The notes under the pieces are model-generated. The model was not told the DNA's origin. It searched no databases and worked only from the letters and a program-made list of their open reading frames with translations. A DNA stretch of 64,000 nucleotides from Sedimentibacter sp. MB35-C1 (GTDB lineage: Bacteria > Bacillota > Clostridia > Tissierellales > Sedimentibacteraceae): positions 1,488,001 through 1,552,000 of the forward strand of contig NZ_CP133188.1 in NCBI RefSeq assembly GCF_030913635.1, in the 5' to 3' direction. Below, one piece after another: positions 7,873 through 39,043 of this stretch. Position 1 is the stretch's first letter; every line of letters begins with the position of its first letter. A program made the position numbers and the translations under genes.

Positions 7873-7899
7873 GAATTCGCCCGTGATAAAAACTTTCCG

Positions 7900-8006: not shown

Positions 8007-8312
8007 ATGACATGGAAACCGACAGAAGTAGAACTGCCTACCATTACAAAGGTGGATTCGCTGGATGGGGATTGTTTCGACATTTTGCTTTCCAACGGCC
8101 ACAGCATTTTTTTAGAGCTGGGTGACAGGATAAGCGAACCTGCCTTTCAAAGGCTTATTGAAAAGCGGCTGTTTGACCGCCCACAGACAGACGGAAAGCG
8201 GCTCTATTGGGTGGACGGTCCCTCGTTCACAGTGGCGGAGATTTTCGCCATGCTGGCGAAGGACAAAGAGAAGCAAGAAACACAAAATTTGAAGGGAGAT
8301 GAAACAAAATGA
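8007..8312 (+). CDS. DUF2442 domain protein
   Basis: A 101-residue protein. Residues ~8-85 match the DUF2442 pattern: 'ITKVDSLDGDCFDILLSNGH', a conserved hydrophobic strand, and 'YWVDGPSFTVAEIFAML' near the end. DUF2442 proteins are small and of unknown function; some partner toxin-like proteins. TAGGAGGAGAT at 7991-8001 sets the start. It overlaps the giant SLH gene by 4 bases (ATGA), so the two are co-translated, which is an unusual pairing. Confidence 0.8.
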   Translation: MTWKPTEVELPTITKVDSLDGDCFDILLSNGHSIFLELGDRISEPAFQRLIEKRLFDRPQTDGKRLYWVDGPSFTVAEIFAMLAKDKEKQETQNLKGDETK

Positions 8313-21938: not shown

Positions 21939-23669
21939 ATGAAATTTAAAAAGAGCCTGCCGTATCTCCTGCCCAGCCTTGCTGGATTATCTGTGTTTTA
22001 CCTCATTCCCTTAGTGCTGTCACTTTATTATGCATTGATTAATAATATGGGCAGCAAAGAATTTATCGGATTGCAAAATTTCATAAATACGGTTCAAAAT
22101 CAAATGTTTCAAAAGGGTTTATTTAATACCGCTGTTTTTATGATTATTAGTATTCCAGTTTTGATTGTTATTGCTTTGCTCATTGCACTGCTGCTAGAAA
22201 GAATGCTGCGTGGACAAGGTATCTTGATGACTGTATTGATGTTCCCGATTATCATTCCTTCCGGTGTAACCGTACACTTCTGGAAGTCAATTTTTGATAT
22301 AAACGGGCTAATCAATAAAATATTGTATAGCCTTGAATTTCCTATTATCAATTTTACAAGCAGCGGGTGGGCAATCTTAATTCCGATTATCATATATCTC
22401 TGGAAAAATACAGGATTTGCAGCGGTGGTTTTTTACGCAGGGATGAAAAGAATTCCGATGGAATATTACGAGTACGCCAACTGCACAGGAGCAAGTCCGT
22501 GGCAGCAATTTTACCACATTACATGGACTTATCTTTCTCCGATCACATTTGTTGTTTTGGTTTTGTCGTTTATAAATTCCTTTAAAATATTTAAGGAACT
22601 CTATATTCTCTATGGGAATTACCCTCCGGATCATCTGTATACGTTGCAGCACTATATGAATAACCAGTTTTTCAGCTTTAATATGCAGAAGCTGACTGCC
22701 GCATCTTATATTCTAATTTTTTTGGTTGGCATGGTAATTTTTGCTTTGTTTTACAGACAGAAAAGGCTGTCGAATGCCTTTACCTCTCTCGAATTAGGCG
22801 GACATCTACCAAAGACTCAGACAAAACGCTCATCAATTATCAGCCATTTACCCGCTGTTATGATTGCACTTGCTATATTGCTTCCTTTGCTTTTTACAAT
22901 TTCTAACTCTATCATGAGCAGTCATGAGGTTGTGAACCGGTATACGACAGAAGTAACGGCCTTTAACGCTTTGGATTTAGCAAGGAATGGTATGCATTTT
23001 GTAAACATAGGATTTTACCCGAACAATCCAACATTGGAGCAATACCAGAACCTTTTGTTCGATCATTCTACATATTGGCGGTTTTATGGAAATTCCATCT
23101 TTATGACCCTGCCTATTGTGCTGGGGCAATGCATTGTTTCATGCCTTGCGGCCTACGCATTCGAGAGGATGCAATGGAAATATAAAGAAGTTCTGTTTTT
23201 CGGATATATTGCAATCATGATGATGCCGCTGCAGGTCCTATTGGTGTCCAATTATTTGGTGGCAGACTTTTTGAATCTTCGAGATAGCTATGCTTCCATC
23301 ATTCTTCCGGGAATTTTCAATCCGTTAGGTGTCTTTTGGATTCGGCAGAATATAAAAGGATTTCCGCAAGAATGCATTGAAGCAGCAGAGCTAAGCGGCG
23401 CTTCCGAAGGTCAAGTGTTTCGCTCCATTGTTTTGCCGAACTTGAAACCGGCCGTTATCTCCCTCTTCGTCTTGACATTTGCTGATTATTGGAATGTCAT
23501 AGATCAAGCGGTAGTGTTAATAAAATCTATCCATAAACAGCCGCTATCTATGCATTTGGGCAGTATGCTCAGCACGGAACCTGGGATGTTTTTTGCGGGA
23601 GCCTGCCTATATCTTATCCCCGCTGGTTTTGTCTTTTTCATAGGTAAAAATTATCTGATTGACAGCTAG
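21939..23669 (+). CDS. Fused MalF-MalG-type ABC permease
   Basis: A 576-residue inner-membrane protein containing two complete permease halves. Half 1 (about 1-275) has its EAA loop at 'YEYANCTGASPWQQFYHITW', and half 2 (about 300-576) has its EAA loop at 'EAAELSGASEGQVFRSIVLP'. In most family-1 sugar importers the two halves are separate genes; here there is no stop or restart between them and the linker is only ~25 residues. Each half keeps about six TM segments. Half 2 also has a sizeable external insert (about 330-375). A GGAAAGGAG site precedes the start. Confidence 0.88.
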   Translation: MKFKKSLPYLLPSLAGLSVFYLIPLVLSLYYALINNMGSKEFIGLQNFINTVQNQMFQKGLFNTAVFMIISIPVLIVIALLIALLLERMLRGQGILMTVLMFPIIIPSGVTVHFWKSIFDINGLINKILYSLEFPIINFTSSGWAILIPIIIYLWKNTGFAAVVFYAGMKRIPMEYYEYANCTGASPWQQFYHITWTYLSPITFVVLVLSFINSFKIFKELYILYGNYPPDHLYTLQHYMNNQFFSFNMQKLTAASYILIFLVGMVIFALFYRQKRLSNAFTSLELGGHLPKTQTKRSSIISHLPAVMIALAILLPLLFTISNSIMSSHEVVNRYTTEVTAFNALDLARNGMHFVNIGFYPNNPTLEQYQNLLFDHSTYWRFYGNSIFMTLPIVLGQCIVSCLAAYAFERMQWKYKEVLFFGYIAIMMMPLQVLLVSNYLVADFLNLRDSYASIILPGIFNPLGVFWIRQNIKGFPQECIEAAELSGASEGQVFRSIVLPNLKPAVISLFVLTFADYWNVIDQAVVLIKSIHKQPLSMHLGSMLSTEPGMFFAGACLYLIPAGFVFFIGKNYLIDS

Positions 23670-23741
23670 ATAATTCCTGTTCATAGAAATAAAAAGTAAA
23701 TCTTATTTTAGTAACTATCATTTGAAAGGAGAGGAGCAAAT

Positions 23742-24863
23742 ATGGCAAATTTATCACTCAATCATGTTTATAAAGAATATCCCTGTGGGTTTGCTGCTGT
23801 TTCAGACTTCTGTTTAGAAGTAGCAGATAGGGAGTTTATTGTTTTGGTCGGGCCGTCCGGCTGCGGCAAATCTACGACACTTCGAATGATTTCCGGCCTG
23901 GAAGAAATCTCAAAAGGCGAGCTTTATATCAATGGTCGCATGGTTAATAAACTTGCTCCCAAAGACCGTAATATTGCTATGGTCTTTCAGAATTACGCCT
24001 TATATTCCCATATGACTGTGTTTGATAATATGGCGTTTGCCCTAAAGATTCACAATACCTCCAAGAATGAAATAAAGCGACGTGTAGAGGAAACGGCAAA
24101 TATGCTAGGTATACTCAGCTTGATGAACCGTATGCCAAAATCGCTGTCTGGAGGGCAAAAACAGCGTGTGGCTTTAGGCCGTGCCTTAGTTTGTGAATTT
24201 GAAGTTTTCTTGTTTGATGAGCCTCTATCCAATTTGGATGCTAAACTTCGTGGGCAGATGCGGACTGAGCTGATTAGGCTACACAAAAAGCTGAATACCA
24301 CTTTTATATACGTTACCCATGACCAGACAGAGGCTCTTACTATGGGCGATCGCATCGTGGTAATGAAAGACGGATTTATCCAACAGGTTGGTACACCGCA
24401 GGAGCTGTACTATTCCCCGTGCAACTTGTTTGTAGCGGGATTTATCGGTTCTCCGTCCATGAATTTTATAAATGGTATCCTAACGCATGACGAAAGCAGA
24501 TACTATATCACTATTGACAGCAAAGGACACTCTTGTGAAATAAAACTTCCGGAAGATATCAGCAAGGATCAGTCTATAAAAGGATATATCAGAAAAGAAG
24601 TTGTTATGGGTATTCGCCCGGAAAATGTATATGTGGATGGTTCATTCGTTTCCGGTTCTGACGCCGATAGTATTACCTGTCATGTTGATATTGCGGAAAC
24701 AATGGGCGCAGACAGCTTCCTTCACCTAAGCTTTGGAAACAATATCATAATTGCGCGGACATCCTCGCACACAGATATTTGTTCCGGAGATACTATAAAA
24801 GTGCAGATGGATGGTACCCAAATACATATTTTTGATAAAAAAACCGGGAAAGCCATTTTATGA
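23742..24863 (+). CDS. ABC transporter ATP-binding protein (MalK/UgpC type)
   Basis: A 373-residue ATPase that powers the sugar-type importer. It shows Walker A 'GPSGCGKST' (about residue 37), Q-loop 'MVFQNYALYSHM', signature 'LSGGQKQR' (about 135), Walker B 'FLFDEP' and H-loop 'VTHDQ'. The C-terminal ~135 residues form the TOBE/regulatory domain of the MalK subgroup. GAAAGGAGAGG lies ahead of the ATG. Because the permease is fused, binding protein, permease and this ATPase make a complete three-gene importer. No sugar-metabolic gene is nearby, so the end use is unclear. Confidence 0.92.
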   Translation: MANLSLNHVYKEYPCGFAAVSDFCLEVADREFIVLVGPSGCGKSTTLRMISGLEEISKGELYINGRMVNKLAPKDRNIAMVFQNYALYSHMTVFDNMAFALKIHNTSKNEIKRRVEETANMLGILSLMNRMPKSLSGGQKQRVALGRALVCEFEVFLFDEPLSNLDAKLRGQMRTELIRLHKKLNTTFIYVTHDQTEALTMGDRIVVMKDGFIQQVGTPQELYYSPCNLFVAGFIGSPSMNFINGILTHDESRYYITIDSKGHSCEIKLPEDISKDQSIKGYIRKEVVMGIRPENVYVDGSFVSGSDADSITCHVDIAETMGADSFLHLSFGNNIIIARTSSHTDICSGDTIKVQMDGTQIHIFDKKTGKAIL

Positions 24864-25075
24864 TTAATTCGTTGTGATCAAAATAGTAAAGAAATTTTTA
24901 TGCTTCTACATTTGCTGTTTAAGCAAAGCCCTATAAACGGTAGATTTCTTACGTTTCTACTAAATTATGATGCTCTATTTGAAAATAGTTTTATTGGAAT
25001 TCAAAGCTGCATCTATTTTGTACTAACGACACAACAAAAAGTTATGTGCGAGAACTAAACTCATATATTACTTTT

Positions 25076-25117
25076 TTCTTTTATATATGATAAAATTAAA
25101 TAAAGATTATTTACATA
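25076..25117 (+). promoter_or_regulatory. Repeated promoter/leader before the M23 peptidase gene
   Basis: A TATGATAAAAT-type -10 region and the TAAAGATTATTTACAT leader. Bases 25076-25112 match 27485-27521 at 34 of 37 positions. The leader part also precedes the GrpB and hydrolase genes. The 210 bases between the ATPase stop and this copy show no gene. Confidence 0.55.
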
Positions 25118-25134
25118 TCATGTAGGAGGTCCGT

Positions 25135-26010
25135 ATGCATTATATATATTTCTTTTCTAAGTATGCAAAGTGGTTGGGTATCATAGCTTTTATAGGAACA
25201 CTGTTTAGCAATTCACCTATTTTAAAAATGCTTTGTTTATTTGGATTATTTGTGCTTATAGAAATGACACTTGATTTTTCTGTATATAAGTGTTCATTCT
25301 TGCAAGTAATAGGTATGTTTAAAGTGAATAAAAAATATAAAAATAATATGCCGTCGGTGGATAATTATAAATGTAAAGTTGAATACGATTTACCGTTCAA
25401 AGGGAAATGGACGGCTGTAAATGGTTGTTTCACAAAAGAATACTCTCATTCATGGGGTATTCCCACACAGCGATATGCTTATGATTTTATTATCTTAGAT
25501 GAAAATGGAAAATCATACAACAGAGCCTTCAATCAAAGTGAAAATTATTATTGCTATGACAGAGATGTTTTATCTCCTGCCGATGGTGTAATTGTGGAAG
25601 TTTTGAACAATGCCAAAGACAGCTTAATTTTCAAAAGAGGTCAATTTTATTCTAGAGCCAAACATATTGCAGGAAATTATGTTGTAATAAAACACGATAA
25701 ACAAGAATACAGCACATTAGCACATTTAAAAGAAGACAGTATAAGTGTCGAAGTTGGAGAAACTGTTTCACGAGGACAACCCATTGCTAAGTGTGGTAAT
25801 ACAGGAAATTCAACCGAGCCACATCTGCATTTTCAACTACAAACAGGGCAAAGCTTTTATAGTAGTGCTGGGCTTCCGATACATTTTAGAAAGATTCTCC
25901 TTTCAAATGTTGAAAATTATGAAAAATTTGACTCAAGACCACACATGGAAATTAGTCAAATTCCTGCTGGATATGTGACAAGGGGTTTTAATGCAGAAAA
26001 TTTGCAATAG
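25135..26010 (+). CDS. M23-family (LytM-like) peptidase, membrane-anchored
   Basis: A 291-residue protein. Two hydrophobic segments (about 10-45) anchor it, and an M23 fold covers ~115-240. It keeps the 'EPHLHFQLQTG' HxH motif, the central His in 'YSTLAHLK', and typical turns 'SPADGVIVEV' and 'GNYVVIKH'. The first zinc site is unusual: the expected HxxxD reads 'RYAYD', so the His ligand is replaced by Arg. Family members cleave peptidoglycan cross-links; loss of the His would weaken or abolish metal catalysis. Solitary cargo gene with the shared leader and tail repeats. GTAGGAGGT sets the start. Confidence 0.8.
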   Translation: MHYIYFFSKYAKWLGIIAFIGTLFSNSPILKMLCLFGLFVLIEMTLDFSVYKCSFLQVIGMFKVNKKYKNNMPSVDNYKCKVEYDLPFKGKWTAVNGCFTKEYSHSWGIPTQRYAYDFIILDENGKSYNRAFNQSENYYCYDRDVLSPADGVIVEVLNNAKDSLIFKRGQFYSRAKHIAGNYVVIKHDKQEYSTLAHLKEDSISVEVGETVSRGQPIAKCGNTGNSTEPHLHFQLQTGQSFYSSAGLPIHFRKILLSNVENYEKFDSRPHMEISQIPAGYVTRGFNAENLQ

Positions 26011-26060
26011 CTATTATTAGCATAATCTCTCATATGTCAGTTCAAGTCCAGTTTCCAAAA
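26010..26060 (+). repeat. tRNA-Leu-3'-like remnant, copy C
   Basis: It starts at the peptidase stop codon. TTAGCATAATCTC is followed by CAGTTCAAGTCC, as in copy A. The T-stem is not intact. Confidence 0.45.
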
Positions 26061-26090
26061 TGCAATGACAAAATTATTAACCGTTAAACA

Positions 26091-26148
26091 CAAGTTATAA
26101 ACTGTATTTTTGTTGGTAGAGACCAATGAAAATGCAGTTTTTTTAAGT
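26091..26148 (+). repeat. Hairpin tail repeat, copy 2 (terminator-like)
   Basis: CAAGTTATAAACTGTA, TTTTTGTTGGT, loop, ACCAATGAAAATGCAG and seven T. This is the counterpart of the hairpin tail at 18015-18072 and the probable terminator of the peptidase gene. Confidence 0.6.
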
Positions 26149-26336
26149 GAGAAATATTTTAAGGTAGAATTCAAAGTGGGTTGCATCTTTGAGATTAAGG
26201 GAGTTTTAATGTGATGGTTTTAGGTGATTGTGCAGTAAAATTAAAGATTTTAAAAAAGTTCTTGCAATCAATTTTTAATGGCCTTATCCTTTATTTGAGG
26301 ATATCCTTCACAACTCAAAGGAGGAAATTAAATTAT

Positions 26337-27311
26337 ATGAATTATGAAAAAATGAACGAGCTTGAAAAAACAATCAACAATGATTATAACAATATTACTG
26401 GTATAGTTACGTTAAAAAACGGTGAAGCGGTATATGAAAATTATTTTAACGGATATACAGCCGATAACGCCATTCATGTATATTCGGTGACAAAAAGCAT
26501 TTTTTCAGCGCTGATTGGCATTGCCATTCATAGGGGGTATATTAAAAGTGTCGACCAGAAGGTATTAGACTTTTTCCCGGATTATACGGTAGCCAAAGGC
26601 GAAGAAACGATACAGCGTATTACGATCAGAGATATGCTGACCATGACCGCACCCTATAAATATGATTCAGAACCGTACGAAAAGTTCTTTACAAGTCCGA
26701 ACCCAATTCGAGATGCACTCGATTTATTAGGCGGAAATGGAACTATAGGGGAATTCAATTATTCTGCTATCGGTGGAACCCATATTTTGTCGGGCCTTTT
26801 GGTAAAAGCTACGGGGCAACAAATACTTAATTTTGCTACAGAACATTTATTTTCACCACTGGGAATAAATGTTCCTCAAAATATTGTATTGCGGAATCAA
26901 GAAGAGCATATCGCCGTTATGAATGATAAAAGCACCTATGGCTGGGTTGTTGACCCGCAGGGAATCAACATGGCAAGCTGGGGCCTTTTTCTAACACCTG
27001 CGGACATGGCGAGAATAGGTCAGCTATATTTAGATGGTGGCATGTGGCAGGGAAAACAAGTTGTACCGCCCACGTGGATAGACGAAAGCACCAAAGAGCA
27101 TAGCCGCTGGGGAGAGTTGTCTTATGGCTATCTATGGTGGGTTATTGACGAGAAAGAGCATATTTACACCGCTTTGGGAGACGGTGGAAATGTAATTTAC
27201 ATCAATACAAAGAAAAAATTGGTGGTTTCTATTGCTTCTCTTTTCATACCAAATGCTAAGGACAGGATAGAGTTTATTAGAGAGCATATCGAACCAATAT
27301 TTGAGGATTGA
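26337..27311 (+). CDS. Serine hydrolase, class C beta-lactamase-like
   Basis: A 324-residue penicillin-binding/beta-lactamase-fold hydrolase. The active-site motifs are 'SVTK' (Ser-x-x-Lys, about residue 49), Tyr in 'FNYSAIGGTH' (about 142) and 'GDGGN' near the C-terminus in place of the KTG/HxG box. ATG 26337 is chosen because AAAGGAGG lies at 26317-26324; an upstream frame to 26211 lacks one. No signal peptide is visible, so it is probably cytoplasmic and more likely an esterase or peptidase than a resistance enzyme. It is followed by its own terminator. Confidence 0.85.
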   Translation: MNYEKMNELEKTINNDYNNITGIVTLKNGEAVYENYFNGYTADNAIHVYSVTKSIFSALIGIAIHRGYIKSVDQKVLDFFPDYTVAKGEETIQRITIRDMLTMTAPYKYDSEPYEKFFTSPNPIRDALDLLGGNGTIGEFNYSAIGGTHILSGLLVKATGQQILNFATEHLFSPLGINVPQNIVLRNQEEHIAVMNDKSTYGWVVDPQGINMASWGLFLTPADMARIGQLYLDGGMWQGKQVVPPTWIDESTKEHSRWGELSYGYLWWVIDEKEHIYTALGDGGNVIYINTKKKLVVSIASLFIPNAKDRIEFIREHIEPIFED

Positions 27312-27366
27312 GTGTGATGAATTTTCATTTATCATAGAATATGCTAGATTTTTCATAGGTAAAATC

Positions 27367-27408
27367 GCCCTGCTGATTGTAAATTAGCGGGGCGGCCCTC
27401 TTTTTGAC
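27367..27408 (+). terminator. Terminator after the serine hydrolase
   Basis: GCCCTGCT (27367-27374) pairs with AGCGGGGC (27386-27393, one T-G pair), followed by a T run at 27401-27405. Confidence 0.7.
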
Positions 27409-27484
27409 ATATAATTAGCTCTTACGCTCGCTTTGTACGAAATATAAGTGACATAAAATTTGTGCAAGCAGAATAATATTATTT

Positions 27485-27525
27485 TTCTTTTATCTATGAT
27501 TAAATTAAGTAAAGATTATTTTTAT
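27485..27525 (+). repeat. Second copy of the promoter/leader repeat
   Basis: Nearly the same 37 bases as at 25076-25112 (three differences), including TAAAGATTATTT. The first codons of the small frame at 27496 lie inside it. Confidence 0.6.
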
Positions 27526-27702
27526 TTGGCAAAAGAGAACAAACATGAGGAAACTGGCGTTCTCATACCTGCAATAATTTTCGCGATTTTCTATGGCTGG
27601 GTAGCTTTAGACGGAATAGGTTCTATACCCCCTATTGTTATAGTTTGGTTAGTTTTATTTTGTATTGCAGGTGCCTTGTTTTTGCGCTTAAGGAAGTTTT
27701 GA
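27496..27702 (+). CDS. Small membrane protein or fragment
   Basis: Sixty-eight codons with two hydrophobic segments (about 25-42 and 46-62, 'PAIIFAIFYGWVAL', 'PPIVIVWLVLFCIAGALF'). The ATG and first ~9 codons fall within the promoter/leader repeat, and no ribosome site is evident, so the start is doubtful. It could be a gene fragment joined to a promoter by recombination. I do not recognise a family. Confidence 0.35.
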   Translation: MIKLSKDYFYLAKENKHEETGVLIPAIIFAIFYGWVALDGIGSIPPIVIVWLVLFCIAGALFLRLRKF

Positions 27703-27932
27703 AGGAATTAAGTAAACAAATTACTACTATTCTTGTAAAACGAAATAAATCGAATAAAAAATTAAAAAGTAAATATAAAATTAATTTATTTCTTGAAGCA
27801 GGTTTTCTTCTATCCTTCAGCAAACTTAAGCATAATACTGTAAATATTCCCATTATTTGCACAAAGCTAATTGCTTTATTCATCGGTGCAATATATAATA
27901 TATACAATACTAATTCGGCAAAATATATTTTT

Positions 27933-28053
27933 ATGGGCTATATGACAACGAAAGAAACAACGGAAAAATGGGCAATCACTCTACGCTGGGCACAGGTGAT
28001 TTGCGCTTAGGGAAGATATTGGATGCTATTTGGCCAACGTTGTGTAGTGAGCT
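27933..28053 (+). pseudogene. Decayed small HTH DNA-binding gene
   Basis: 'MTTKETTEKWAITLRWAQVI' followed by Cys-Ala and a TAG resembles the MTTKEAAEKWGIS-type helix-turn-helix of small mobile-element proteins. After the stop the same frame gives G-R-Y-W-M-L-F-G-Q-R, which resembles the next conserved part. Substitutions and the stop mark it as a relic. It immediately precedes the large NTPase gene. Confidence 0.5.
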
Positions 28054-28092
28054 ATTGATATAGAATTGAACTAGAGAGGTAGATGTCGCATT

Positions 28093-31000
28093 ATGGCTAA
28101 GATTGAAACCATTAAACAAAAAATACGCACATTAGATGCAGGATCATTTCAAAATCTTTGCGATTCATATTTATATAAAATAGGCTATCCTAATATAGTA
28201 TCTCTTGGTGGAGAAGCAGGAACGAGAAAAACAACTTCGGGTACACCTGACACTTATTTTAATACATCAGATGGAAAGTATATTTTTGTAGAATATACAA
28301 CTCAAAAGACAAGTTTATTTACAAAAATTAAGGATGACCTTGCAAAGTGCCTGGATGTATCAAAAACAGGTGTTACTCATGATAAAATTGCTGAAATCAT
28401 TTATTGCCATACTTCATCTAACATTACACCTTTACAAGATGATAAAGTAAAAACTTTATGCGAAGATGTTGGAATTAAACTTACAATTATTGGAATTGAC
28501 AAACTCGCAGAAGATTTATATCTTTTATATCCCATTATTGTTCGAGATTTTTTGGGAATATCAATAAGCACTGATCAAATTCAATCATGTGACGATTTTG
28601 TGAGGTATTATAACTCAAACAGGATGGCAGCACCAATTGACACTAAATTTTTATTTAGAGATAAAGAAATTGATAATATTAATAAAGCATATCAAAAATC
28701 TGATATTGTAATACTAAGTGGTGCGGCTGGCACAGGAAAAACTCGGTTGGCTTTGCATTATGCGAAAAGTTACTCGAGTACTCATAATGAAAAATTTTAC
28801 TGTATACATAGTAATGCTTTACCTATCTATGAAGATTTAAAGCTTTTCATAGACAATCCTGGCAACTATTTTCTTTTTATTGATGATGCAAATCAATTGT
28901 CAGGACTACAACATATAATTCGTTATACAACCATGAAACCTGATGGATATAATGTGAAAATACTTATTACAGTTCGAGATTATGCACTTCAAAAAGTGAC
29001 AAACGATATTCGTGAAATCACTTCATATGAAAATATAAATATTTGCTCATTCACAGATGATGAAATTAAGAAGTTACTTGAAACAGTATTAGGAATTACT
29101 AATTCGGATTATCAAGGAAGAATCATAAAAATTTCTGAGGGAAATGCCCGAATTGCCATACTTGCAGGAAAAGTAGCTTGTAGTTCAAACCGTTTGGACT
29201 CTATTAATGATGTATCACAATTGTATGAAGATTATTATGGTTCTTCTTTAAAAAAACAACAATTACTTATTGATAATAATATGTGCGTAACTGCTGGTAT
29301 AGTTGCATTTTTGGAAGCAATTCATTTAGAACATATTGATTCATTCTTACCAATTTTACAAGAAAAGGGATTAGGCAGAGATAGGTTTATTGAAAATATC
29401 CGTAAGCTTCATGAACAAGAAATTGTTGATATTTGCAATGATAAAGCGGTTCGTTTTTCTGAGCAGTGTCTGTCCAATTATTTACTTAAATATGTTTTCT
29501 TCGATAAAAAGCTACTTAGCCTGTCAGCAATGATTAAATCATGTTTTCAAAATTATAGAGAGAGAACAATCTCGTCCATTAACACATTACTAAATATTTT
29601 TAGAAATGAAGATATATTTTGTTTTGTTGAGAAAGAAATTAAAATGCTGTGGGATGAGTTATCACAAGAAAAATCTCTATATTTCTTCGAATTTGTCAAA
29701 GTATTCTTTCGCGTTAATCCCACTGAAACACTTCTAATTTTGCAGAATAAAATTGAATATGAAGAAAATGTGATTATCGGCAGTTTTGATTTTGATACTG
29801 AAAAAGGAAAGAACTATCAGAATGTAACAAATGATATTATTATAATTCTTGGTGAATTTGCAGATACGCCTGATCTACCAACGGCATTAGATTTATTTTT
29901 TCAGTATTATTTAAAACGCCCGGATTTGTATATGCAATTTTATCACGCAGTTATTCGATACTATGGTATAAAAAAAGTTTCTATGAGCTATGGGTTTCAA
30001 ACACAAATAGTTTTTTTAGAGAAGATAAAAGAATATTCAGATGATTGGAAACAAGAATCTGTTGTCATTCTTTTCTTAGAAATAGCAAAAGAATTTTTGA
30101 AATTGCATTTTTCTTCTACTGAGAGCGGGAGAAGGAACACAATTATTATCTATCAAATCCCGTTAATTATTTCTGAAGGTGTTGAAAGATATCGAAAGCT
30201 CATTTGGCAGTACTTATCTGAACTTTGTAAAATTGATAAATACAAAGAAGAAATTAGGAAAATACTTGATTCTTATAGTGGTACAATTGAGGAAATAAGC
30301 CTTCCTGTTTTACAATTTGATTTGACATATATTAAAATTATTTTGGAAGCAGATTTTCCATCAAATGAGTTGCGAAATTGCCTATTGGCAAATAGATTAG
30401 TACAAATTTTTGAGCGTATGAACATTTCATGTGAATCATTGTTTGTTGAATATTTGGTAGGAGAGCATTTTCACTTATATCACCTTCTTGAAGGACCTGA
30501 TTATAATGGAAAAATTGATTATAGCAAATATGGAAATCTAAAAAGGAAATCAATTGAACAATACGTTTCTAATTGTGATTTAGTAATGTTTAAACGGTTA
30601 ATTGATGTTTGTTATGACATAAATTGTTTTAATGATTACAATGCTTGTGAAATTGGAAAAGGGTTAGGTATTGCCTTTAATGCTATTTCTCACAAAAAAG
30701 ATTGCTATGTTGATGCAATTAAGTATTACATAGAAAAAGATACCCCATACAATTTGCATCCATATTGCTTAGTAAGTGTTCTTTTTTCCTTGTTAACTGA
30801 TTCGGAAGTGTATAATCTAATTGTTGGTAGTGAATACAAGCAAAAAAATGCGTGGTTATACGCTTATTATCATGAATTACCATCAGAGTTAATTACAGAA
30901 AAACATTTATATGGACTTTATGAATTTTTGGAAGATACTTCTGATGGAATTATTACTTCAACATCATTACGTGATGTGGATTTTTTTGAGAAGTACAGTG

Positions 31001-31836
31001 TTGTAGACGAAGATGCTTTGATAAAGGGCTGCAAAATTATTTTAACTAAAATGGAATATTCACCATTTATAGTGCATATTTATTTTGATTTGCTATTTGA
31101 TTACATTCATAATACACCACGGGATGTTATCCGAAAATTTAATAGAAACTTGGAGCTGCTCGAAGAAATCTATTGCACAATGTTGTCATACGATAGCAAT
31201 CATGATTATAATGGCAAATTCTTAAAAGAGCTTTATTTGGTTAGACCATCTGTGTTGGATGAGTATATTGATTATTTAGTTAATAAAAACAGAGGTGCTT
31301 TTAGTGATCATCAAGAAATGCATAGATGTTTCTTTGAATTGGATGATTTCTTAGAAATTTATAATACGATTTTTATACAACTAATAAAAAATTGTCAGTA
31401 TCCCACAATTTCTGTGCCGTATTTTTTGGAGTCCATACTGTTACCAGTTCAAAATGAGCAAAACTTATTAGAAAGACAAGATGAGTGGATTCGAAAATGT
31501 ATTCAACTGTTCTCTAATGATGGAACAAAGATGCATTGTTTGTTTTCGGTTATATCCAAATTGAAAATAGAAAGAAAAAAAGAATATGTTCTGCTGTTCC
31601 TTGAGAATAATCAATTATTTGAAGACTTTAAGAGGATTCCTTTAACTCCTATGACATGGGGTTGGTCAGGAAGTGTGGTACCTATGTATTCTGGTTGGAT
31701 TAAATTTCTCGAATTGTTGCTTTCAAACTTCACAGGTTTAAAGTGGATAAAGCATAAAAATTATGTTGAAACAAAAATTAGTTTTTTAAAAAAGCAAATT
31801 GAATCTGAACAGGTTGAAGAAATTTTAAGAGGATGA
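28093..31836 (+). CDS. Nuclease-STAND NTPase, Avs-like candidate antiphage protein
   Basis: A 1247-residue soluble protein. Residues ~1-130 look like a PD-(D/E)xK nuclease of the Mrr/Cap4 kind: 'FQNLCDSYLYKIGY', then 'GTPDTYF' (Asp53) and 'GKYIFVEYTTQ' (Glu67; the third position is Thr, not Lys). The P-loop NTPase follows, with Walker A GAAGTGKT at 210-217, Walker B 'YFLFIDDANQ' (Asp264, Asp265) and 'ILITVRDYA'. The remaining ~850 residues are helical and repeat-like, as in STAND sensors. Avs proteins of this layout recognise phage proteins with the C-terminal part and then activate the nuclease. It is one AT-rich gene without partners in a mobile region. An ordinary regulatory or restriction ATPase is the alternative. 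Confidence 0.7.
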   Translation: MAKIETIKQKIRTLDAGSFQNLCDSYLYKIGYPNIVSLGGEAGTRKTTSGTPDTYFNTSDGKYIFVEYTTQKTSLFTKIKDDLAKCLDVSKTGVTHDKIAEIIYCHTSSNITPLQDDKVKTLCEDVGIKLTIIGIDKLAEDLYLLYPIIVRDFLGISISTDQIQSCDDFVRYYNSNRMAAPIDTKFLFRDKEIDNINKAYQKSDIVILSGAAGTGKTRLALHYAKSYSSTHNEKFYCIHSNALPIYEDLKLFIDNPGNYFLFIDDANQLSGLQHIIRYTTMKPDGYNVKILITVRDYALQKVTNDIREITSYENINICSFTDDEIKKLLETVLGITNSDYQGRIIKISEGNARIAILAGKVACSSNRLDSINDVSQLYEDYYGSSLKKQQLLIDNNMCVTAGIVAFLEAIHLEHIDSFLPILQEKGLGRDRFIENIRKLHEQEIVDICNDKAVRFSEQCLSNYLLKYVFFDKKLLSLSAMIKSCFQNYRERTISSINTLLNIFRNEDIFCFVEKEIKMLWDELSQEKSLYFFEFVKVFFRVNPTETLLILQNKIEYEENVIIGSFDFDTEKGKNYQNVTNDIIIILGEFADTPDLPTALDLFFQYYLKRPDLYMQFYHAVIRYYGIKKVSMSYGFQTQIVFLEKIKEYSDDWKQESVVILFLEIAKEFLKLHFSSTESGRRNTIIIYQIPLIISEGVERYRKLIWQYLSELCKIDKYKEEIRKILDSYSGTIEEISLPVLQFDLTYIKIILEADFPSNELRNCLLANRLVQIFERMNISCESLFVEYLVGEHFHLYHLLEGPDYNGKIDYSKYGNLKRKSIEQYVSNCDLVMFKRLIDVCYDINCFNDYNACEIGKGLGIAFNAISHKKDCYVDAIKYYIEKDTPYNLHPYCLVSVLFSLLTDSEVYNLIVGSEYKQKNAWLYAYYHELPSELITEKHLYGLYEFLEDTSDGIITSTSLRDVDFFEKYSVVDEDALIKGCKIILTKMEYSPFIVHIYFDLLFDYIHNTPRDVIRKFNRNLELLEEIYCTMLSYDSNHDYNGKFLKELYLVRPSVLDEYIDYLVNKNRGAFSDHQEMHRCFFELDDFLEIYNTIFIQLIKNCQYPTISVPYFLESILLPVQNEQNLLERQDEWIRKCIQLFSNDGTKMHCLFSVISKLKIERKKEYVLLFLENNQLFEDFKRIPLTPMTWGWSGSVVPMYSGWIKFLELLLSNFTGLKWIKHKNYVETKISFLKKQIESEQVEEILRG

Positions 31837-31915
31837 TCTTTCAATCATATTAGATATTTATATGGTGCATTTAGAAGTGTAAATTAATAAAAACTTGGCG
31901 TAATTCAAAAAATGT

Positions 31916-31944
31916 TTGCAAATGAATAAAGCTTATTGTATAAT
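31916..31944 (+). promoter_or_regulatory. Promoter of the MFS exporter attenuator
   Basis: TTGCAA (31916-31921) and TATAAT (31939-31944) with exactly 17 bp between. Transcription would start near 31951, about 345 bases before the MFS start codon. Confidence 0.75.
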
Positions 31945-31973
31945 ACGAGTATAATAACAACAGGAGGATAATC

Positions 31974-32105
31974 ATGAATACAGTCGATACTGCGAATAAA
32001 ATCTGTAAATTCAGCAGTTCTGTGTCCAAAAATGGTATTTTTGCGCATTGCGGGAGAAGTGCGTCCATTTTTAGGCTGAATACAGACGATTGTATAAATC
32101 TATGA
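31974..32105 (+). CDS. Putative 43-residue leader peptide
   Basis: A short frame with a strong site (CAGGAGGA at 31961-31968) six bases ahead of its ATG, directly behind a consensus promoter. The peptide includes 'VSKNGIFAHCGRSASIFR'. It is followed by two hairpins with T runs and then an MFS exporter gene, the order expected of a ribosome-stalling attenuator that switches on drug resistance or export. No homologue is recognised, so the function rests on arrangement. Confidence 0.55.
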   Translation: MNTVDTANKICKFSSSVSKNGIFAHCGRSASIFRLNTDDCINL

Positions 32106-32210
32106 TGTCTTTGCAGTGTAATAAATATAATTATATTATATGTATTAACCATGGACTCTGATTTATTTTGAGTCTTTTTATATTGCTATAAATTTGATGC
32201 CTTTCTCCAT

Positions 32211-32266
32211 AAGCCTCAGATGATTATTTCTTTGTTTATCCAAAGAAATGTCAATAGGGCTTTTTT
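32211..32266 (+). terminator. Attenuator terminator before the MFS gene
   Basis: The inner 9-bp stem ATTTCTTTG/CAAAGAAAT (32226-32234 with 32241-32249), a TGA/TCA step and the outer AAGCC/GGCTT (32211-32215 with 32258-32262) lead into a run of T ending at 32266. A weaker GACTC/GAGTC hairpin with five T lies at 32154-32179. AGGCT within the leader frame near 32073 could compete with the outer stem. Confidence 0.65.
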
Positions 32267-32297
32267 GTTTTTTAAAATAAATTTGGAGGAATTAACA

Positions 32298-33527
32298 TTG
32301 AACATAAAATTAAAACGAAATATATCAATAGGTTATGCATATAATTTTTTCTTGCAGTTGAATATTACTTCTGCTATTTGGGTTTTATATCTTTCATTTA
32401 AAGGAATGACACTAGCTGAAATTGGAATTCTTGAATCACTTTACCACATAACCGGGTTGCTCTTGGAGTTACCAAGCGGTGCTTTGGCAGATTTGAAAGG
32501 AAGAAAGTTCTGTGTTGTGGCAGGCAGAGTGGTTGAATTAGTATCATGTTATCTTATGATGACGTCAAACAGCTTTTTTGGTTTTGCAGTTTCTTTTATT
32601 TTAAGCAGCGCTGCGATGAATTTAAATTCAGGTGCAGCGGAAGCACTAATCTATGACAGCTTGAAAGAGCTGGGGGAAGAAGAAAAGTACAAAAAAATAT
32701 GGGGTCAGTTAGTATTTGCCATGTCTATTGCGCAGGGTGTTGCAGTTTTGCTTGGCGGAATTTTAGCTGATGTTAGGTTCTTGTATGCATATATGTTAGG
32801 AATGGTTGTACAGACGGTAGCATTATTATTATCCATAAGATTTACCGAGCCGCCAATTCATAACAAAGGCATTGAAAAAGATAATGAAAAAAACGAACAA
32901 GAAAAATTAATCATTAAGCAAGTAAAAACAAGTATTAGTGTTATAAGAAAAAGAAAAATTGTATTGTATATAATATTATTTTCGGCTTTGCTGGGAAGCC
33001 TTCAAACAACTGTGTTTTTTTATAGCCAGAAATATTTTTTCGATATTGGTTTTACAAAGACCATGATTGCTGTCATTTGCGCAACTGGAAGTCTAATTGA
33101 AGCAATAAGCTCAAAGTATGCTTATATTTTAGAAAGCAGGCTTAAATTAAAAGGGACTTTGATAACCGTATCTTCTGTGAATATATTTGCTTTAGCCGGT
33201 TTGACATTGTTCAAAGACTTATCTGTATTTTTTTATCTGCTGACCGCTGTTTCAGGAGGTCTTGCATTTACGATACTCAGCGACTATATAAATACCGAAA
33301 TTCCGTCTGAATACAGGGCAACAATATTGTCATTTGACAGTTTGTGTTTCAGCATATTTATGATATGCATATTTCCGCTGTTTGGATTAACAGCCGATTA
33401 CGCAGGTTTTTCCGCAACTTTTGGTGTGACAGCGATAATATACATTCCGATAATGGTTTTTTTGATAAATAAGTTATTAAAACAAAATAGAAAGGATACT
33501 GCTGTGAGTAACAGTGCTATTAGCTAA
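32298..33527 (+). CDS. MFS transporter (probable drug or metabolite exporter)
   Basis: A 409-residue membrane transporter with about 12 TM segments and a charged central loop (about 190-220). The MFS motif between TM2 and TM3 is 'GALADLKGRKFCVV' (about 66-79). TTG 32298 is the start because TTGGAGGA lies at 32284-32291; the longer frame from 32220 would begin inside the attenuator hairpin. The leader peptide and terminator upstream suggest induction by a ribosome-targeting compound, so drug export is the leading guess. No substrate can be assigned from the sequence. Confidence 0.85.
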   Translation: MNIKLKRNISIGYAYNFFLQLNITSAIWVLYLSFKGMTLAEIGILESLYHITGLLLELPSGALADLKGRKFCVVAGRVVELVSCYLMMTSNSFFGFAVSFILSSAAMNLNSGAAEALIYDSLKELGEEEKYKKIWGQLVFAMSIAQGVAVLLGGILADVRFLYAYMLGMVVQTVALLLSIRFTEPPIHNKGIEKDNEKNEQEKLIIKQVKTSISVIRKRKIVLYIILFSALLGSLQTTVFFYSQKYFFDIGFTKTMIAVICATGSLIEAISSKYAYILESRLKLKGTLITVSSVNIFALAGLTLFKDLSVFFYLLTAVSGGLAFTILSDYINTEIPSEYRATILSFDSLCFSIFMICIFPLFGLTADYAGFSATFGVTAIIYIPIMVFLINKLLKQNRKDTAVSNSAIS

Positions 33528-33577
33528 GGGCAAAGAAGGGTTATGTAAGTTGGTTATTCTGGGGGGATAATTTAATA

Positions 33578-33621
33578 TTGGAAAAATGTTTTCAAAAGAG
33601 TATACTATTATTATAGTATAC
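33578..33621 (+). promoter_or_regulatory. Promoter with palindromic operator before the M20 hydrolase
   Basis: TTGGAA (33578-33583), a 17-bp spacer and TATACT (33601-33606). A perfect inverted repeat GTATACTAT/ATAGTATAC (33600-33608 with 33613-33621) covers the -10 region and would let a bound repressor block initiation. Confidence 0.65.
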
Positions 33622-33649
33622 AATTTTAAAAAAGAATGGAGATAAAGGG

Positions 33650-35299
33650 ATGAAGCTATCTGAAAGAATAGAAAGAAATTTATTGAATTATCTGCAGACT
33701 AGGACGCATACCGGAACTGAGCTTGAAAGGAATAACGAGATGTTCTTTAAGAAGTGGTTTGATTCAGTGCCGTATCTGAAAAGGGACCCGGAATATTGCG
33801 GATTTTATGAAATGAAAAATGATATTTTAAACAGAAGCTGTCCGTGGGCGCTGCTTAAGGGAGAAGGAACTAAGACTATAGTGATGATTCACCACACCGA
33901 TACGGTTGATACGGATGATTATGGGAAATACAAGCAGTTTGCTTATACTCCGGATGAATTAGAAAAGCATTTTAAGTCTGAAAACGTTGAGATGGATGAA
34001 ACTTCTAAAGAAGATTTATATTCGGGAAAGTGGATGTTTGGCAGAGGCGCTTCAGATATGAAAGGCGGAGCAAGCATAGCTTTATCATTGTTTGAAGAAT
34101 ATTCGGGAGAAGAAAATTTTGCAGGTAATATACTTTTGATGGGTGTTCCGGATGAGGAGAACCTGTCTGCCGGTATGAGATCGGCAGTGATGTTGATGAA
34201 GGGGCTTAGAGAAAAATACGAATTGGAATATGCATTGATGTTAAATGTTGAGCCTCATGAAAGAAGCAACGAAGATGAAATAACAATTTATGACGGTTCT
34301 GTTGGAAAGATGATGCCCATATTTCTTGTGCGTGGTAAGCTTGCCCATGTCAGCCAGATTTACAATGGCTTTAATCCGGTTACTTTGCTGTCAAAAATAG
34401 TGGTAAAGACCGATTTGAATCCTGATTTTATGGAAAAAGCAGGGAATACGGTGACTCCTCCTCCAACATGGCTGTATTTTAAGGATAGAAAATATGTGTA
34501 CGATGTGTCACTGCCTTTAACAGCCGGAGGATATATGTCAGTTCTTACTCTCACAAAATCTCCCAAGGAAATTTTGGATCAGCTTAAAAAAGTAAGTATT
34601 GAGGCATTTAAAGAAGTTATATCCAGTATGAGGTTAAGCTATGATAAATATAAAAGTTTATCAGACGTGGATTCCAATGCAGCGGAGTGGAAGCCCAACG
34701 TAAAATTTTACGGTGAAGTTTATAGAGAAATAAAAGATAAAAAGGGCGATATGTTTACGACGGAATTGGCTGAATTTCAAAAAGAACTGGAGATCAAGAT
34801 TAATAAAAACGAAATTAACAGAATTGACGGTGCTTACCTTCTTATAGAAAAAACTCTTGAGTATTACGATGATTTATCTCCTATGGTTATAATAGCACTG
34901 GCACCTCCTTACTACCCGAGCATCAATAATTCTATGCTTAAAAATTCAGATGAAACTAATGAACTGCTTATTAAGCTGGACAAATTTGCAAGAAGTGAAA
35001 TAGGCAGTGGAATATATACTCAAAATTATTTTACGGGAATATCTGATTTAAGCTATGCAGCATTTACAGCTGACAGCGAAAACATAGATTATATCAGCAG
35101 CAATATGATATTTTGGGGAGATACGTACTATATACCTCTAGATACCATAAAGGAACAGTCAGTTCCGGTTCTTAACATAGGCCCATGGGGAAGAGATCTT
35201 CACAAATATACCGAAAGGGTTTATAAGAAGGATTTATTTGAAAATATACCAAAACTGATAGATTTCACAGTCAGAAATGTATTAAGCAGAAACTTTTAG
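33650..35299 (+). CDS. M20-family hydrolase, RocB-like
   Basis: A 549-residue metallohydrolase similar in length and motifs to arginine-utilisation protein RocB. The zinc-binding pattern is present: His-x-Asp in 'VMIHHTDTVD', 'GRGASDMKGG', 'GVPDEENLSAG', 'LNVEPHERS', and a distal His in 'GPWGRDLHKYTERV'. M20 enzymes hydrolyse amide bonds of small peptides or acyl-amino acids; RocB's exact reaction is not settled. It is monocistronic or coupled to the next MFS gene, which may import its substrate. The start follows a GGAGATAAAGGG site. Confidence 0.85.
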   Translation: MKLSERIERNLLNYLQTRTHTGTELERNNEMFFKKWFDSVPYLKRDPEYCGFYEMKNDILNRSCPWALLKGEGTKTIVMIHHTDTVDTDDYGKYKQFAYTPDELEKHFKSENVEMDETSKEDLYSGKWMFGRGASDMKGGASIALSLFEEYSGEENFAGNILLMGVPDEENLSAGMRSAVMLMKGLREKYELEYALMLNVEPHERSNEDEITIYDGSVGKMMPIFLVRGKLAHVSQIYNGFNPVTLLSKIVVKTDLNPDFMEKAGNTVTPPPTWLYFKDRKYVYDVSLPLTAGGYMSVLTLTKSPKEILDQLKKVSIEAFKEVISSMRLSYDKYKSLSDVDSNAAEWKPNVKFYGEVYREIKDKKGDMFTTELAEFQKELEIKINKNEINRIDGAYLLIEKTLEYYDDLSPMVIIALAPPYYPSINNSMLKNSDETNELLIKLDKFARSEIGSGIYTQNYFTGISDLSYAAFTADSENIDYISSNMIFWGDTYYIPLDTIKEQSVPVLNIGPWGRDLHKYTERVYKKDLFENIPKLIDFTVRNVLSRNF

Positions 35300-35306
35300 C
35301 TTTGTT

Positions 35307-35354
35307 GCAGCCCGGCCATTATTGGAAGAAGCTGCTGCCGAAATGACGGGCTGC
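35307..35354 (+). terminator. Hairpin after the M20 hydrolase
   Basis: GCAGCCCG (35307-35314) pairs with CGGGCTGC (35347-35354) across a 32-base internal region. The trailing sequence is only moderately T-rich, so its strength is uncertain. Confidence 0.5.
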
Positions 35355-35407
35355 TTAAATTTATGACTTTACCATTAATTCGGAAGGTTTGTATTCACTT
35401 TTTTAGC

Positions 35408-35436
35408 TTGAAAATATTATGATTTTAGTGTATAGT
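35408..35436 (+). promoter_or_regulatory. Promoter of the second MFS gene
   Basis: TTGAAA (35408-35413), a 17-bp spacer and TATAGT (35431-35436), 38 bases before the TTG start. Confidence 0.6.
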
Positions 35437-35473
35437 CTGTATAGTAAAATTTGACATTGAGCCGGAGGAGTAA

Positions 35474-36679
35474 TTGAAAAAGCTATCAATAAAAAGATTA
35501 TATATATTTTTTGGGATTTTTGCAGTATTCAGCAATTTAGCTCATCCGGTTACACCGACAATGTTTATTGAAAAGGGTTTTGAAGATTATCTGTTCGGAG
35601 TTTCATTTGCTGCAATGTCGTTATGCTTTTTTATTGGTTCACTGATTTGGGGAACTGTAGGGGACAGGTATGGGCATGTTAGAGTTATGGCTTTTGTTGG
35701 ACCTATATATGGGGCTTCACAGCTTTTATTCGGTTTAACAAGCACGGTGCTTATGACAATTGTTGCACGGTTGATTGCTGGATTTTTCAGTGCAGGCATG
35801 TATGTGTGCAGTCTGGCTTATTTGGTTAATTTGACTGACCAGAATAACCGAGGACGGAACATGAGCTATTATGTAGCAATAAATTCTGTGGGAGCGGCAT
35901 TTGGATATTTTATAGGGGGAATGCTGGGAAACTATTCAATTACTCCAGTGTTTATTTTGCAAACTTCAGTAATTGTATTGAACGGTATTTTTACATGTCT
36001 TATGCTTGAAGATACCAGCTCGAAGCATACAAAATTTGTTTCAGGAAAGTCGTTGAATCCTTTCAAAGCATACAGCGCAGTAATGGGAAAGATGCCTTTG
36101 ATACTGATAACATTCTTATCTGCGGTATTTTTAACAAGCTTTGCAACAACTGCATATGACAATGCTTTTAACTATTATTTAAGGGATATGTTGGGACTTC
36201 CGTCGTCATATAACGGTGTGATTAAAGCTGTAATAGGCGTTGTGACATTGACGGTAAACTTTACGGTAAACATATACATTGAAAAATATACAGATTCCAG
36301 AAAATCTCTGATAATTGTACTGCTTTTATGCGGTATTTCATCGCTTGCAGTTCCGTTTATTCCGGCACTATATCCATTCTTTATTGCAAATATTGTGTTT
36401 TTTATGTTCAACGCAATATATCTTCCAATACAGCAGGACATTGTTACCAGGGGACAGGACCCAAGCATAGGAGGAATAATATCAGGGATATTTAACTCAG
36501 TAAGAGCAGCCGGAATGATTTTCGGATCGCTGTTTTCAGGATTCATATATGAACTTGGGAGTATACTGCCGTTTTTTTCGGCAGCTTTGGTGTTTTTTAT
36601 AAGCTCAGCAATATCTTTTGCAAACCTGAAACAGTATAAATCTCAAAATACAGAGGTGGCTAATGGATTTACAGATTAA
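35474..36679 (+). CDS. MFS transporter
   Basis: A 401-residue transporter with 12 predicted TM segments. The MFS loop motif is 'LIWGTVGDRYGHVRVM' (about 57-72), and the second-half loop 'YIEKYTDSRKSL' replaces the usual repeat. TTG 35474 is supported by CCGGAGGAG at 35462-35470. It is co-oriented with the RocB-like hydrolase and overlaps a tiny membrane-protein gene at its 3' end. Substrate unknown; peptides or amino-acid derivatives would fit the neighbour. Confidence 0.85.
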   Translation: MKKLSIKRLYIFFGIFAVFSNLAHPVTPTMFIEKGFEDYLFGVSFAAMSLCFFIGSLIWGTVGDRYGHVRVMAFVGPIYGASQLLFGLTSTVLMTIVARLIAGFFSAGMYVCSLAYLVNLTDQNNRGRNMSYYVAINSVGAAFGYFIGGMLGNYSITPVFILQTSVIVLNGIFTCLMLEDTSSKHTKFVSGKSLNPFKAYSAVMGKMPLILITFLSAVFLTSFATTAYDNAFNYYLRDMLGLPSSYNGVIKAVIGVVTLTVNFTVNIYIEKYTDSRKSLIIVLLLCGISSLAVPFIPALYPFFIANIVFFMFNAIYLPIQQDIVTRGQDPSIGGIISGIFNSVRAAGMIFGSLFSGFIYELGSILPFFSAALVFFISSAISFANLKQYKSQNTEVANGFTD

Positions 36680-36803
36680 AATTATAATAGTAGTAATGTT
36701 TTTTGTAATATTGATAAGCATGCAGTATACATTGAATAAAATATTGCTTGCATTGAGAGAGATAAAAGTAATATTGTTGACAAAAAAAGAAAAGCGGGAA
36801 TAA
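36663..36803 (+). CDS. Tiny single-pass membrane protein
   Basis: Forty-six residues overlapping the end of the MFS gene by 17 bases in another frame. One hydrophobic helix ('IKIIIVVMFFVILIS') is followed by a basic tail ending in KKEKRE. A GAGGTGG site lies just ahead of the ATG. The overlap and site suggest translational coupling to the transporter, possibly as an accessory subunit. Confidence 0.55.
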   Translation: MDLQIKIIIVVMFFVILISMQYTLNKILLALREIKVILLTKKEKRE

Positions 36804-36848
36804 TTTATATTATTTCAATCATAATAATCTTGTGATAAGGAGGTAATT

Positions 36849-37034
36849 ATGGCTGAAAAAAATGCAAAAAAGAAAAAGGAACTCACGCCTGATGATTTAA
36901 TGAAGCTTGAAATAGCAAAAGAAATAGGTCTGATGGACAAAGTAAAAGAGCTTGGGTGGGGAGGACTCACTGCCAAGGAAACCGGCAGAATAGGCGGTTT
37001 GATGACTGCTAAGAAAAAACAAAGGAAGAAATAG
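36849..37034 (+). CDS. Alpha/beta-type small acid-soluble spore protein
   Basis: A 61-residue DNA-binding spore protein. The two conserved SASP segments are visible: 'KLEIAKEIGLMDKVKELGWG' and 'AKETGRIGGLMTAKKK'. Such proteins coat spore DNA and protect it from UV and heat, and are made in the forespore late in sporulation. The GATAAGGAGG site ahead of the ATG is strong. The protein is the best evidence in the window that the organism forms spores. The Lys-rich N- and C-termini are typical of clostridial SspF-like versions. Confidence 0.85.
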   Translation: MAEKNAKKKKELTPDDLMKLEIAKEIGLMDKVKELGWGGLTAKETGRIGGLMTAKKKQRKK

Positions 37035-37035
37035 G

Positions 37036-37785
37036 ATGCTCAATAAAAGCTACAAAGAATTTTCGCAAATTTATGATTTGCTGATGGATGACATAGATTA
37101 TGAAAAATGGACATCCTTTATAATAAATAATACCGGAAATATCGGAGGCGGCAAAAAAATTCTTGAGGCTGCATGCGGAACCGGCAGTATAACAAAGTTA
37201 CTGGCAGAAAATGAGTACAAAGTTACTGCATTTGACCTTTCACAGGACATGCTTATGAGAGCGTACGAGAAGCTGGGACGCAGTCCGGTTGTTAAGCTGC
37301 TCAACATGGATATGGCAGATTTTAAAATTGACGACAAATTCCATGCTGCCATATGTTGTTGCGACGGAATAAATTATCTTACTTTTGAAAAAACTGAAAA
37401 TTTTTTTGCAAATATATACAATCATCTGGGTGATGATTCCATATTTATTTTTGATATGAGCACAGAATTTAAGTATAAATCAATGTTCAATGAAACTTAT
37501 GTGTATGATGACGGTGAAATTTTTTATGTTTGGGAAAATATGGCGAATGAAAAAAATAATTCTGTAGATATTGAAATAAATTTTTTTGTTAAGGACTCGT
37601 CAAATAAATATACAAGAATAAATGAAATTCAGACTCAGTATGTACATAATGCAAAAAAAATTACGGAACTTTTAAAAAAAATCGGCTTTTCACATATTGA
37701 AGTTTACGGTGATTATAGTGATAAGATGTATAATAATACTTCTATGAGAGCGGTTTTTTGCGCTAAGAAAGAGAGGAAACAATAA
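37036..37785 (+). CDS. Class I SAM-dependent methyltransferase
   Basis: A 249-residue Rossmann-fold methyltransferase. Motif I is 'ILEAACGTGSITKLLAE' (about residues 41-57), motif II carries the acidic 'TAFDLSQDMLMRA', and 'LLNMDMADFKI' and 'CCDGINYL' correspond to motifs III-IV. The N-terminal 'FSQIYDLLMDDIDYEKW' is typical of a widespread clostridial family of unknown substrate. It starts one base after the spore-protein stop and overlaps the Hsp33 start (TAATG), so the three genes form one operon. Confidence 0.88.
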   Translation: MLNKSYKEFSQIYDLLMDDIDYEKWTSFIINNTGNIGGGKKILEAACGTGSITKLLAENEYKVTAFDLSQDMLMRAYEKLGRSPVVKLLNMDMADFKIDDKFHAAICCCDGINYLTFEKTENFFANIYNHLGDDSIFIFDMSTEFKYKSMFNETYVYDDGEIFYVWENMANEKNNSVDIEINFFVKDSSNKYTRINEIQTQYVHNAKKITELLKKIGFSHIEVYGDYSDKMYNNTSMRAVFCAKKERKQ

Positions 37786-38669: not shown

Positions 38670-38721
38670 CTTTTCTGAATTTTCATTTATTGTAAAATTA
38701 TACAAACAATATAAATTTTAT

Positions 38722-38755
38722 AAGAGGCTTTCCAATTAAATTGCGAAAGTCTTTT
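38722..38755 (+). terminator. Terminator after hslO
   Basis: AAGAGGCTTTC pairs with GAAAGTCTTTT (two G-T pairs) around a 12-base loop, ending in a T run. The remaining ~290 bases to the next gene are very AT-rich with no gene visible. Confidence 0.7.
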
Positions 38756-39043
38756 ATTGTATTTTAATACATAAAATACAATAAAATTTCTTTGCGGGTG
38801 ATTTTTAAAAAATGGAATTTAAAACATTAACATTAAAATTTTATAAATAGTTTTTTGGAAATTTTTTTTGTTTGCAACTCACCATCCAGCTAGCTTTGAG
38901 CCTTTTTCAGCATGAGATTTTTACTGAAGAACCTGAAACAAAAATAAAATTAGACTTCCATTTGCAAAAAAAAGGTGATAATATATTAACAAAATCAAAA
39001 ATACAAATGCATAAAATATAGAACCATTAATGGAGGCTAGATT

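Follow-up and report, generated by a model that had tools for sequence, protein, structure and literature searches.

Avs1 to Avs4 proteins, in which a nuclease effector is followed by a STAND NTPase and a long C-terminal part, are described as cleaving phage and host genomes upon recognising phage proteins, and in Avs5 an nSTAND3 domain is located between a SIR2 effector and C-terminal helical repeats (PMC12931631). Here we describe a gene of comparable layout, located in a 64,000 bp stretch of the Sedimentibacter sp. MB35-C1 genome (NZ_CP133188.1, positions 1,488,001 to 1,552,000), which is referred to below as the window. With a probability of roughly two in three, its product can be considered a single-gene NLR-like defence protein consisting of a sensor tail, a STAND switch and a restriction-endonuclease-type effector. 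On our best reading, it resembles the Avs proteins in layout only and appears to carry a conserved E-x-T version of the nuclease site that lacks the lysine.

As regards the order of effector, STAND NTPase and sensor in the window protein, the NTPase is recognised by Pfam and the putative effector by profile comparison (weak when taken alone), while the sensor is presumed only from the length of the C-terminal region. PADLOC includes Avs models, but none of them appears among the matches (E up to 1) of the window protein or of the proteins of loci L018, L020 and L003. The first-pass annotation, made from the letters alone, had called the protein Avs-like. The layout part of this claim appears to hold, whereas membership in Avs is not claimed, because no Avs model was listed and no Avs-named chain was found among the PDB sequence matches (whether the searched PDB set includes Avs chains was not checked). 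With Avs5 the window protein shares the Pfam NTPase family, but its effector region is not matched by SIR2 models.

Mrr-nSTAND3 proteins also have an N-terminal restriction-endonuclease-type domain followed by nSTAND3. However, the eight aligned members are 743–782 amino acids long and carry D40...Q53xK55, whereas the window protein has 1247 residues and D53...E67xT69. In our survey such proteins were found in two of 291 genomes of the class and on 34 plasmid records, six of which were retrieved. The plasmid-encoded ones are annotated as “restriction endonuclease”, and the one encoded at locus L017 matches the PADLOC candidate PDC-S73 (E 6.4e-121), a model not matched by the window protein at E up to 1. 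PD-lambda-4 protein A has a model length of 1283, and the Leptospira relatives of the window protein match it weakly in the NTPase region (best E 0.0018, residues 209–449), but no such match (E up to 1) is seen with the window protein itself. Identity with PD-lambda-4 was rejected, since the matches of the relatives are weak and confined to the NTPase region. PD-lambda-4 is placed under P-loop NTPases in PMC10952713; the term is absent from the main text of PMC9519451.

Features of the window discussed in the text; positions are counted from the first letter of the window.
Feature	Position	Strand	Basis or remark
Full open reading frame	28093..31836	+	ATG start, 1247 amino acids; nuclease-like / STAND NTPase / C-terminal sensor-like protein
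Residues 1-160, putative N-terminal domain related to Mrr-type restriction endonucleases (weak alone; predicted fold)	28093..28572	+	profile comparison
Residues 50-71, G-T-P-D53 ... F-V-E67-Y-T69-T70-Q71, PD-(D/E)xK-like, T replacing K	28240..28305	+	sequence, alignments
Residues 185-385, STAND NTPase	28645..29247	+	Pfam nSTAND3 match at 191-319
Residues 210-217, Walker A GAAGTGKT	28720..28743	+	sequence and alignment
Residues 261-265, Walker B region LFIDD	28873..28887	+	sequence and alignment
Residues 386-1247, C-terminal region, presumed helical sensor	29248..31833	+	helical moment, dN/dS
Inserted segment, absent from sister genome G018	27419..31859	.	44 unmatched bases there instead

The single reading frame, the GTPD53 and VE67YT motifs, Walker A and the DD pair at 264–265 are all present where the first-pass annotation had placed them. 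The STAND-type NTPase it had proposed between a domain with a PD-(D/E)xK-like motif and a long C-terminal region is borne out by Pfam and by the profile match to Mrr-nSTAND3 proteins described below. The Pfam match to nSTAND3 (PF20720) has an E value of 9.9e-8 and a score of 32.3 bits against a curated cut-off of 27.2. We aligned the window protein with relatives down to 25% identity, and G210, G213, G215-K216-T217, D264 and D265 were invariant in all ten rows of this alignment. The NTPase region is matched only weakly by NCBIfam and PADLOC models, the best PADLOC one being mad8 (E 0.0018, P-loop). In the PDB only DnaB was matched, and the matches to the P-loops of DnaB and KaiC are weak. The gene is present in a single copy in its 3.62-Mb genome and is indeed AT-rich (29–31% G+C), as had been noted. 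A second nSTAND3 match in the same genome (G000:C1:2952260-2952691, locus L055) scores 35.1 bits, above the cut-off, in a 585-aa frame. The promoter scan was uninformative (35 sites against 29.7 expected).

In the N-terminal domain Q20, D24, G39, G43, K46, T47, G50-T51-P52-D53, K78, D82 and K91 are invariant in the ten rows; when the L021 fragment is added, K46 becomes near-invariant. Both catalytic acids of the PD-(D/E)xK motif are well represented, D53 in 10/10 rows and E67 in 9/10. T69 and T70 are likewise kept in nine rows, and the tenth has G in the position of T69. The first-pass annotation had called the ExT unusual: T does replace K, but it is conserved in nine of the ten rows and hence is no oddity of this copy. 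With a conserved threonine where the catalytic lysine would be expected, any catalysis must rely on a different residue, for which the invariant K78 and the near-invariant K46 are candidates.

Comparison of the ten-row profile with that of the eight Mrr-nSTAND3 proteins gave a match over residues 11–469 (probability 97.9, E 5.5e-13), to which the NTPase part contributes most according to the confidence digits. In this full-length comparison E67 is aligned with Q53 and T69 with the lysine K55 of the Mrr-nSTAND3 family. For the stretch 11–469 taken as a whole, common descent with these proteins is well supported. The N-terminal part compared on its own scored 26.1, a value reached in none of 200 column shuffles (maximum 22.1).

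The helical hydrophobic moment of the C-terminal region exceeds that of shuffled sequences by z = 2.2, which is a crude test of helicity, and a Pfam scan of the last ~850 residues has found no repeat family. The mean ratio of nonsynonymous to synonymous substitution rates (dN/dS) is 0.16 for 13 sequences (loci L009, L012, L013 and L017 were left out), indicating purifying selection. By segment, the ratio is 0.14 in residues 1–160, 0.11 in 161–385 and highest (0.21) in 701–1000, so purifying selection is weakest in a part of the presumed sensor.

Within the genus, 25 genomes were searched, 11 of which have a completeness of 90% or more and a contamination of 5% or less, and the gene was found in that of the window only. 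Profile searches gave three of 398 genomes at the phylum level (the window's own, G338 in two frames and G254 with the C-terminal part only) and three of 391 at the class level (the window's own, G592 and G737). G592 and G737 carry distant full-length relatives (30 and 27% identity); other distant relatives, 25–30% identical, are located on 13 Leptospira plasmid records, 12 of them with at least 80% coverage. Scanning one genome per species revealed 16 close loci in various clostridia, Acetobacterium, Streptococcus cristatus, Vagococcus lutrae, Aedoeadaptatus coli and Streptobacillus notomytis. Thirteen of the copies are intact and 71–77% identical; the broken ones (L009, L013 and L017) were left out of the identity matrix and its alignment. 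L013 of A. coli and L016 of S. notomytis share 98.1% DNA identity over 4281 bp (L013:7663-11942, L016:7663-11941), which may mean either a recent transfer or a contaminated assembly.

No match was found in 50,697 phage records. In the viral contig collection the single-protein query found nothing and the alignment queries found one locus, L025, which keeps only about the first 78 residues and lies on a contig with two serine recombinases. As the phage records gave no match and the viral contigs only this truncated copy, a phage-borne gene was rejected. Shortened or internally deleted copies are seen in L009, L017 and L025, and both L017 and L025 lose similarity near residue 78. Overall, horizontal spread of the gene is supported.

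An empty site corresponds to the window copy. The sister genome G018 aligns with window positions 22212–27418 (97.3% identity), 31860–33510 (95.5%) and 33541–39487 (91.6%). Since its flanks abut across the 44 unmatched bases, about 4.44 kb, consisting of one gene and ~670 bp upstream of it, is present here and absent there. The gene had been placed in a mobile region. The insert itself does vary, but both flanks continue in G018, so a larger mobile element around the window copy was rejected. No bracketing repeats of at least 18 nt were found around the insert, and no shared end was seen when the junctions were inspected by eye. The upstream part of the insert matches only itself and one 48-base place in its own genome and has no match among plasmids. 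A 40-nt repeat (93%) is present at 25073–25112, upstream of the M23 peptidase gene, and at 27482–27521, inside the insert and upstream of the STAND gene. The gene is solitary, as first described: the seven neighbours scanned code for the M23 peptidase, a PF00144 beta-lactamase-family protein, two major facilitator superfamily transporters, an M20 peptidase and two short open reading frame products.

Elsewhere the gene is associated with integrase remnants. A segment homologous to the C-terminal end of serine integrases ends 29–111 bp upstream of the gene in 14 of the 16 close loci and in L025; it is not seen in L002 (957 bp of upstream sequence available), L011 and the window. In L004, L005, L009 and L014 the remnant covers only 23–41 residues. 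A RumA/RlmCD-type core was found in 10/16 close loci (Pfam was run on three of the genes), and we take these genes to be rumA. The core ends within ~500 bp of the gene in eight loci (L003, L006, L007, L009, L010, L012, L014 and L016) and lies ~5 and ~7 kb upstream in L004 and L005. In four of the eight (L006, L007, L012 and L016) the gene is preceded, at a distance of 20–37 bp, by the end of a chimeric RumA-integrase reading frame. The G338 copy (L021:201-1528), with a frame broken near residue 180, is located directly downstream of a gene labelled by eye as rlmH-like; rlmH is the attachment gene of the staphylococcal cassette chromosome (SCC). As for rumA, it is described as a target of streptococcal integrative and conjugative elements (ICEs) with serine integrases, the 3' parts of rumA and integrase genes being exchanged (PMC4701971).

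Since the receptor gene of L006, L007, L012 and L016 starts 20–37 bp behind the chimeric RumA::integrase-3'-end frame, insertion would place it under the rumA promoter, which suggests a simple route by which a newly arrived element could have its immune gene driven by a host promoter. We tentatively propose, while regarding the combination as rather unlikely to hold in full, a family of integration-coupled receptors in which insertion of the element into rumA supplies the host promoter and the lysine-less G-T-P-D...E-x-T-T effector uses a displaced lysine (K46/K78) or non-canonical chemistry.

A known or candidate defence gene is located nearby in 15 of 19 loci (the 16 close loci, L064, L065 and the window), and the PADLOC-matching neighbours adjoin the gene or stand within a few kb. 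L064 and L065, which belong to the more distant relatives, adjoin restriction-modification (RM) and Septu-like genes; the PADLOC matches are type III Mod and Res in L064 and PDC-M62A/B in L065. The others are type I RM genes (L011), HamB and a DpdB/DndB-like protein (L005), PDC-S34 (L002), a PD-T4-6-like kinase (L007), IetA (L016), PDC-S22 (L004), a HEC-06/Orf5-like protein (L006), RhuM/PDC-S05 (L003) and PDC-S73, the Mrr-nSTAND3 protein mentioned above (L017). With tblastn, RhuM homologues were found in 9/16 close loci (L003, L004, L005, L006, L008, L009, L010, L014 and L017). The loci counted as having no defence gene are L012 and L015 (one neighbour scanned in each), the window (seven scanned) and L013 (neighbours not scanned). 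A control scan of three host genes gave 1.2e-8 (Cas3-HD), 2.5e-4 and no match.

Several observations weigh against a defence protein with a nuclease effector. The lysine expected two residues past the second acid is lacking in all ten rows, and the G737 copy has lost E67 as well. In the catalytic stretch of the full-length profile comparison the local confidence is only 1–4 of 9 and the motif D is one column off D40. The N-terminus alone matches the Mrr-nSTAND3 family weakly (E 0.0013–0.0024, probability 12–18), with T69 again on K55 and with A42 rather than D53 on D40, and control windows of that family score 23.6 (NTPase region) and 28.3 (post-motif part only). Therefore, common descent of the nuclease part by itself is only modestly supported; a direct search of the N-terminus against Pfam and PDB matched no nuclease. 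nSTAND3 matches were found in all 14 well-known genomes searched as a control, above the cut-off in seven, so a match to this model has limited specificity by itself. The window protein fits none of the PADLOC models. No positive selection was detected in the presumed sensor, dN/dS being below 0.22 in every segment. As to the neighbourhood, the scanned genes were a selection from open reading frame lists without a matched background set, many matches (PDC-*, RhuM) are only candidates and the match to the kinase could be a generic one. No defence match was found in L012 and L015, with one neighbour scanned in each, or, at E up to 1, among the seven neighbours in the window.

As the lysine is missing, the effector may be dead or altered. 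The N-terminal domain could have a restriction-endonuclease fold that has lost catalysis or changed strongly and serves only for nucleic acid binding. Invaders would then be stopped in another way or with a partner nuclease, which would be compatible with a defence role. The replacement of the lysine in every row and the G737 copy, which lacks both threonines in addition to E67 and yet retains a 1235-aa reading frame, favour such a fold. However, G-T-P-D53, E67 and T69 are retained elsewhere, in relatives as distant as 25% identity, and active PD-(D/E)xK enzymes with a swapped lysine are known; we give a dead or altered domain a real but minor chance. The integrase pieces upstream of most close loci could instead mean that the carrying element uses the protein mainly to fight mobile elements that compete with it, for ICE exclusion or element maintenance, rather than for defence against phages. 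This seems improbable to us, as the pieces are not seen at three copies, including that of the window, and L064 and L065 adjoin RM and Septu-like genes. Finally, the weak P-loop matches to DnaB and KaiC and the permissive nSTAND3 model would also suit an ordinary AAA/STAND regulator or housekeeping ATPase mistaken for a defence gene. We consider this very improbable: the gene is present in none of the other congeneric genomes, its site is empty in the sister genome and three copies are broken. A fixed housekeeping gene, a case that the first-pass annotation had named as speaking against its proposal, is contradicted by this distribution and the empty site. What that annotation observed is confirmed, and its interpretation is partly supported.

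If the protein is the NLR-like defence receptor that we favour, its C-terminal ~860 residues would sense an invader molecule and the nSTAND3 NTPase, judging by its family, would serve as an ATP-dependent oligomerisation switch. The oligomerised Mrr/PD-(D/E)xK-related effector would then most likely attack DNA, and infection would presumably be stopped at the cell's cost. The gene itself travels, many relatives standing behind a serine-integrase piece, often at rumA, and the window copy being a one-gene insert. It adds a mobile STAND receptor family that is not named by the PADLOC models tested and in which the nuclease site differs from the standard one in a conserved manner. An active protein of this kind would show how a PD-(D/E)xK-type effector can work without the lysine inside an NLR-like protein.

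Apart from this locus, window positions 6000–14041 have a G+C content of 0.49–0.52 compared with ~0.33–0.41 around them. This region spans a 1910-aa open reading frame (8309–14041), after which an insertion sequence-type transposase with rve domains is located at 14448–15779.

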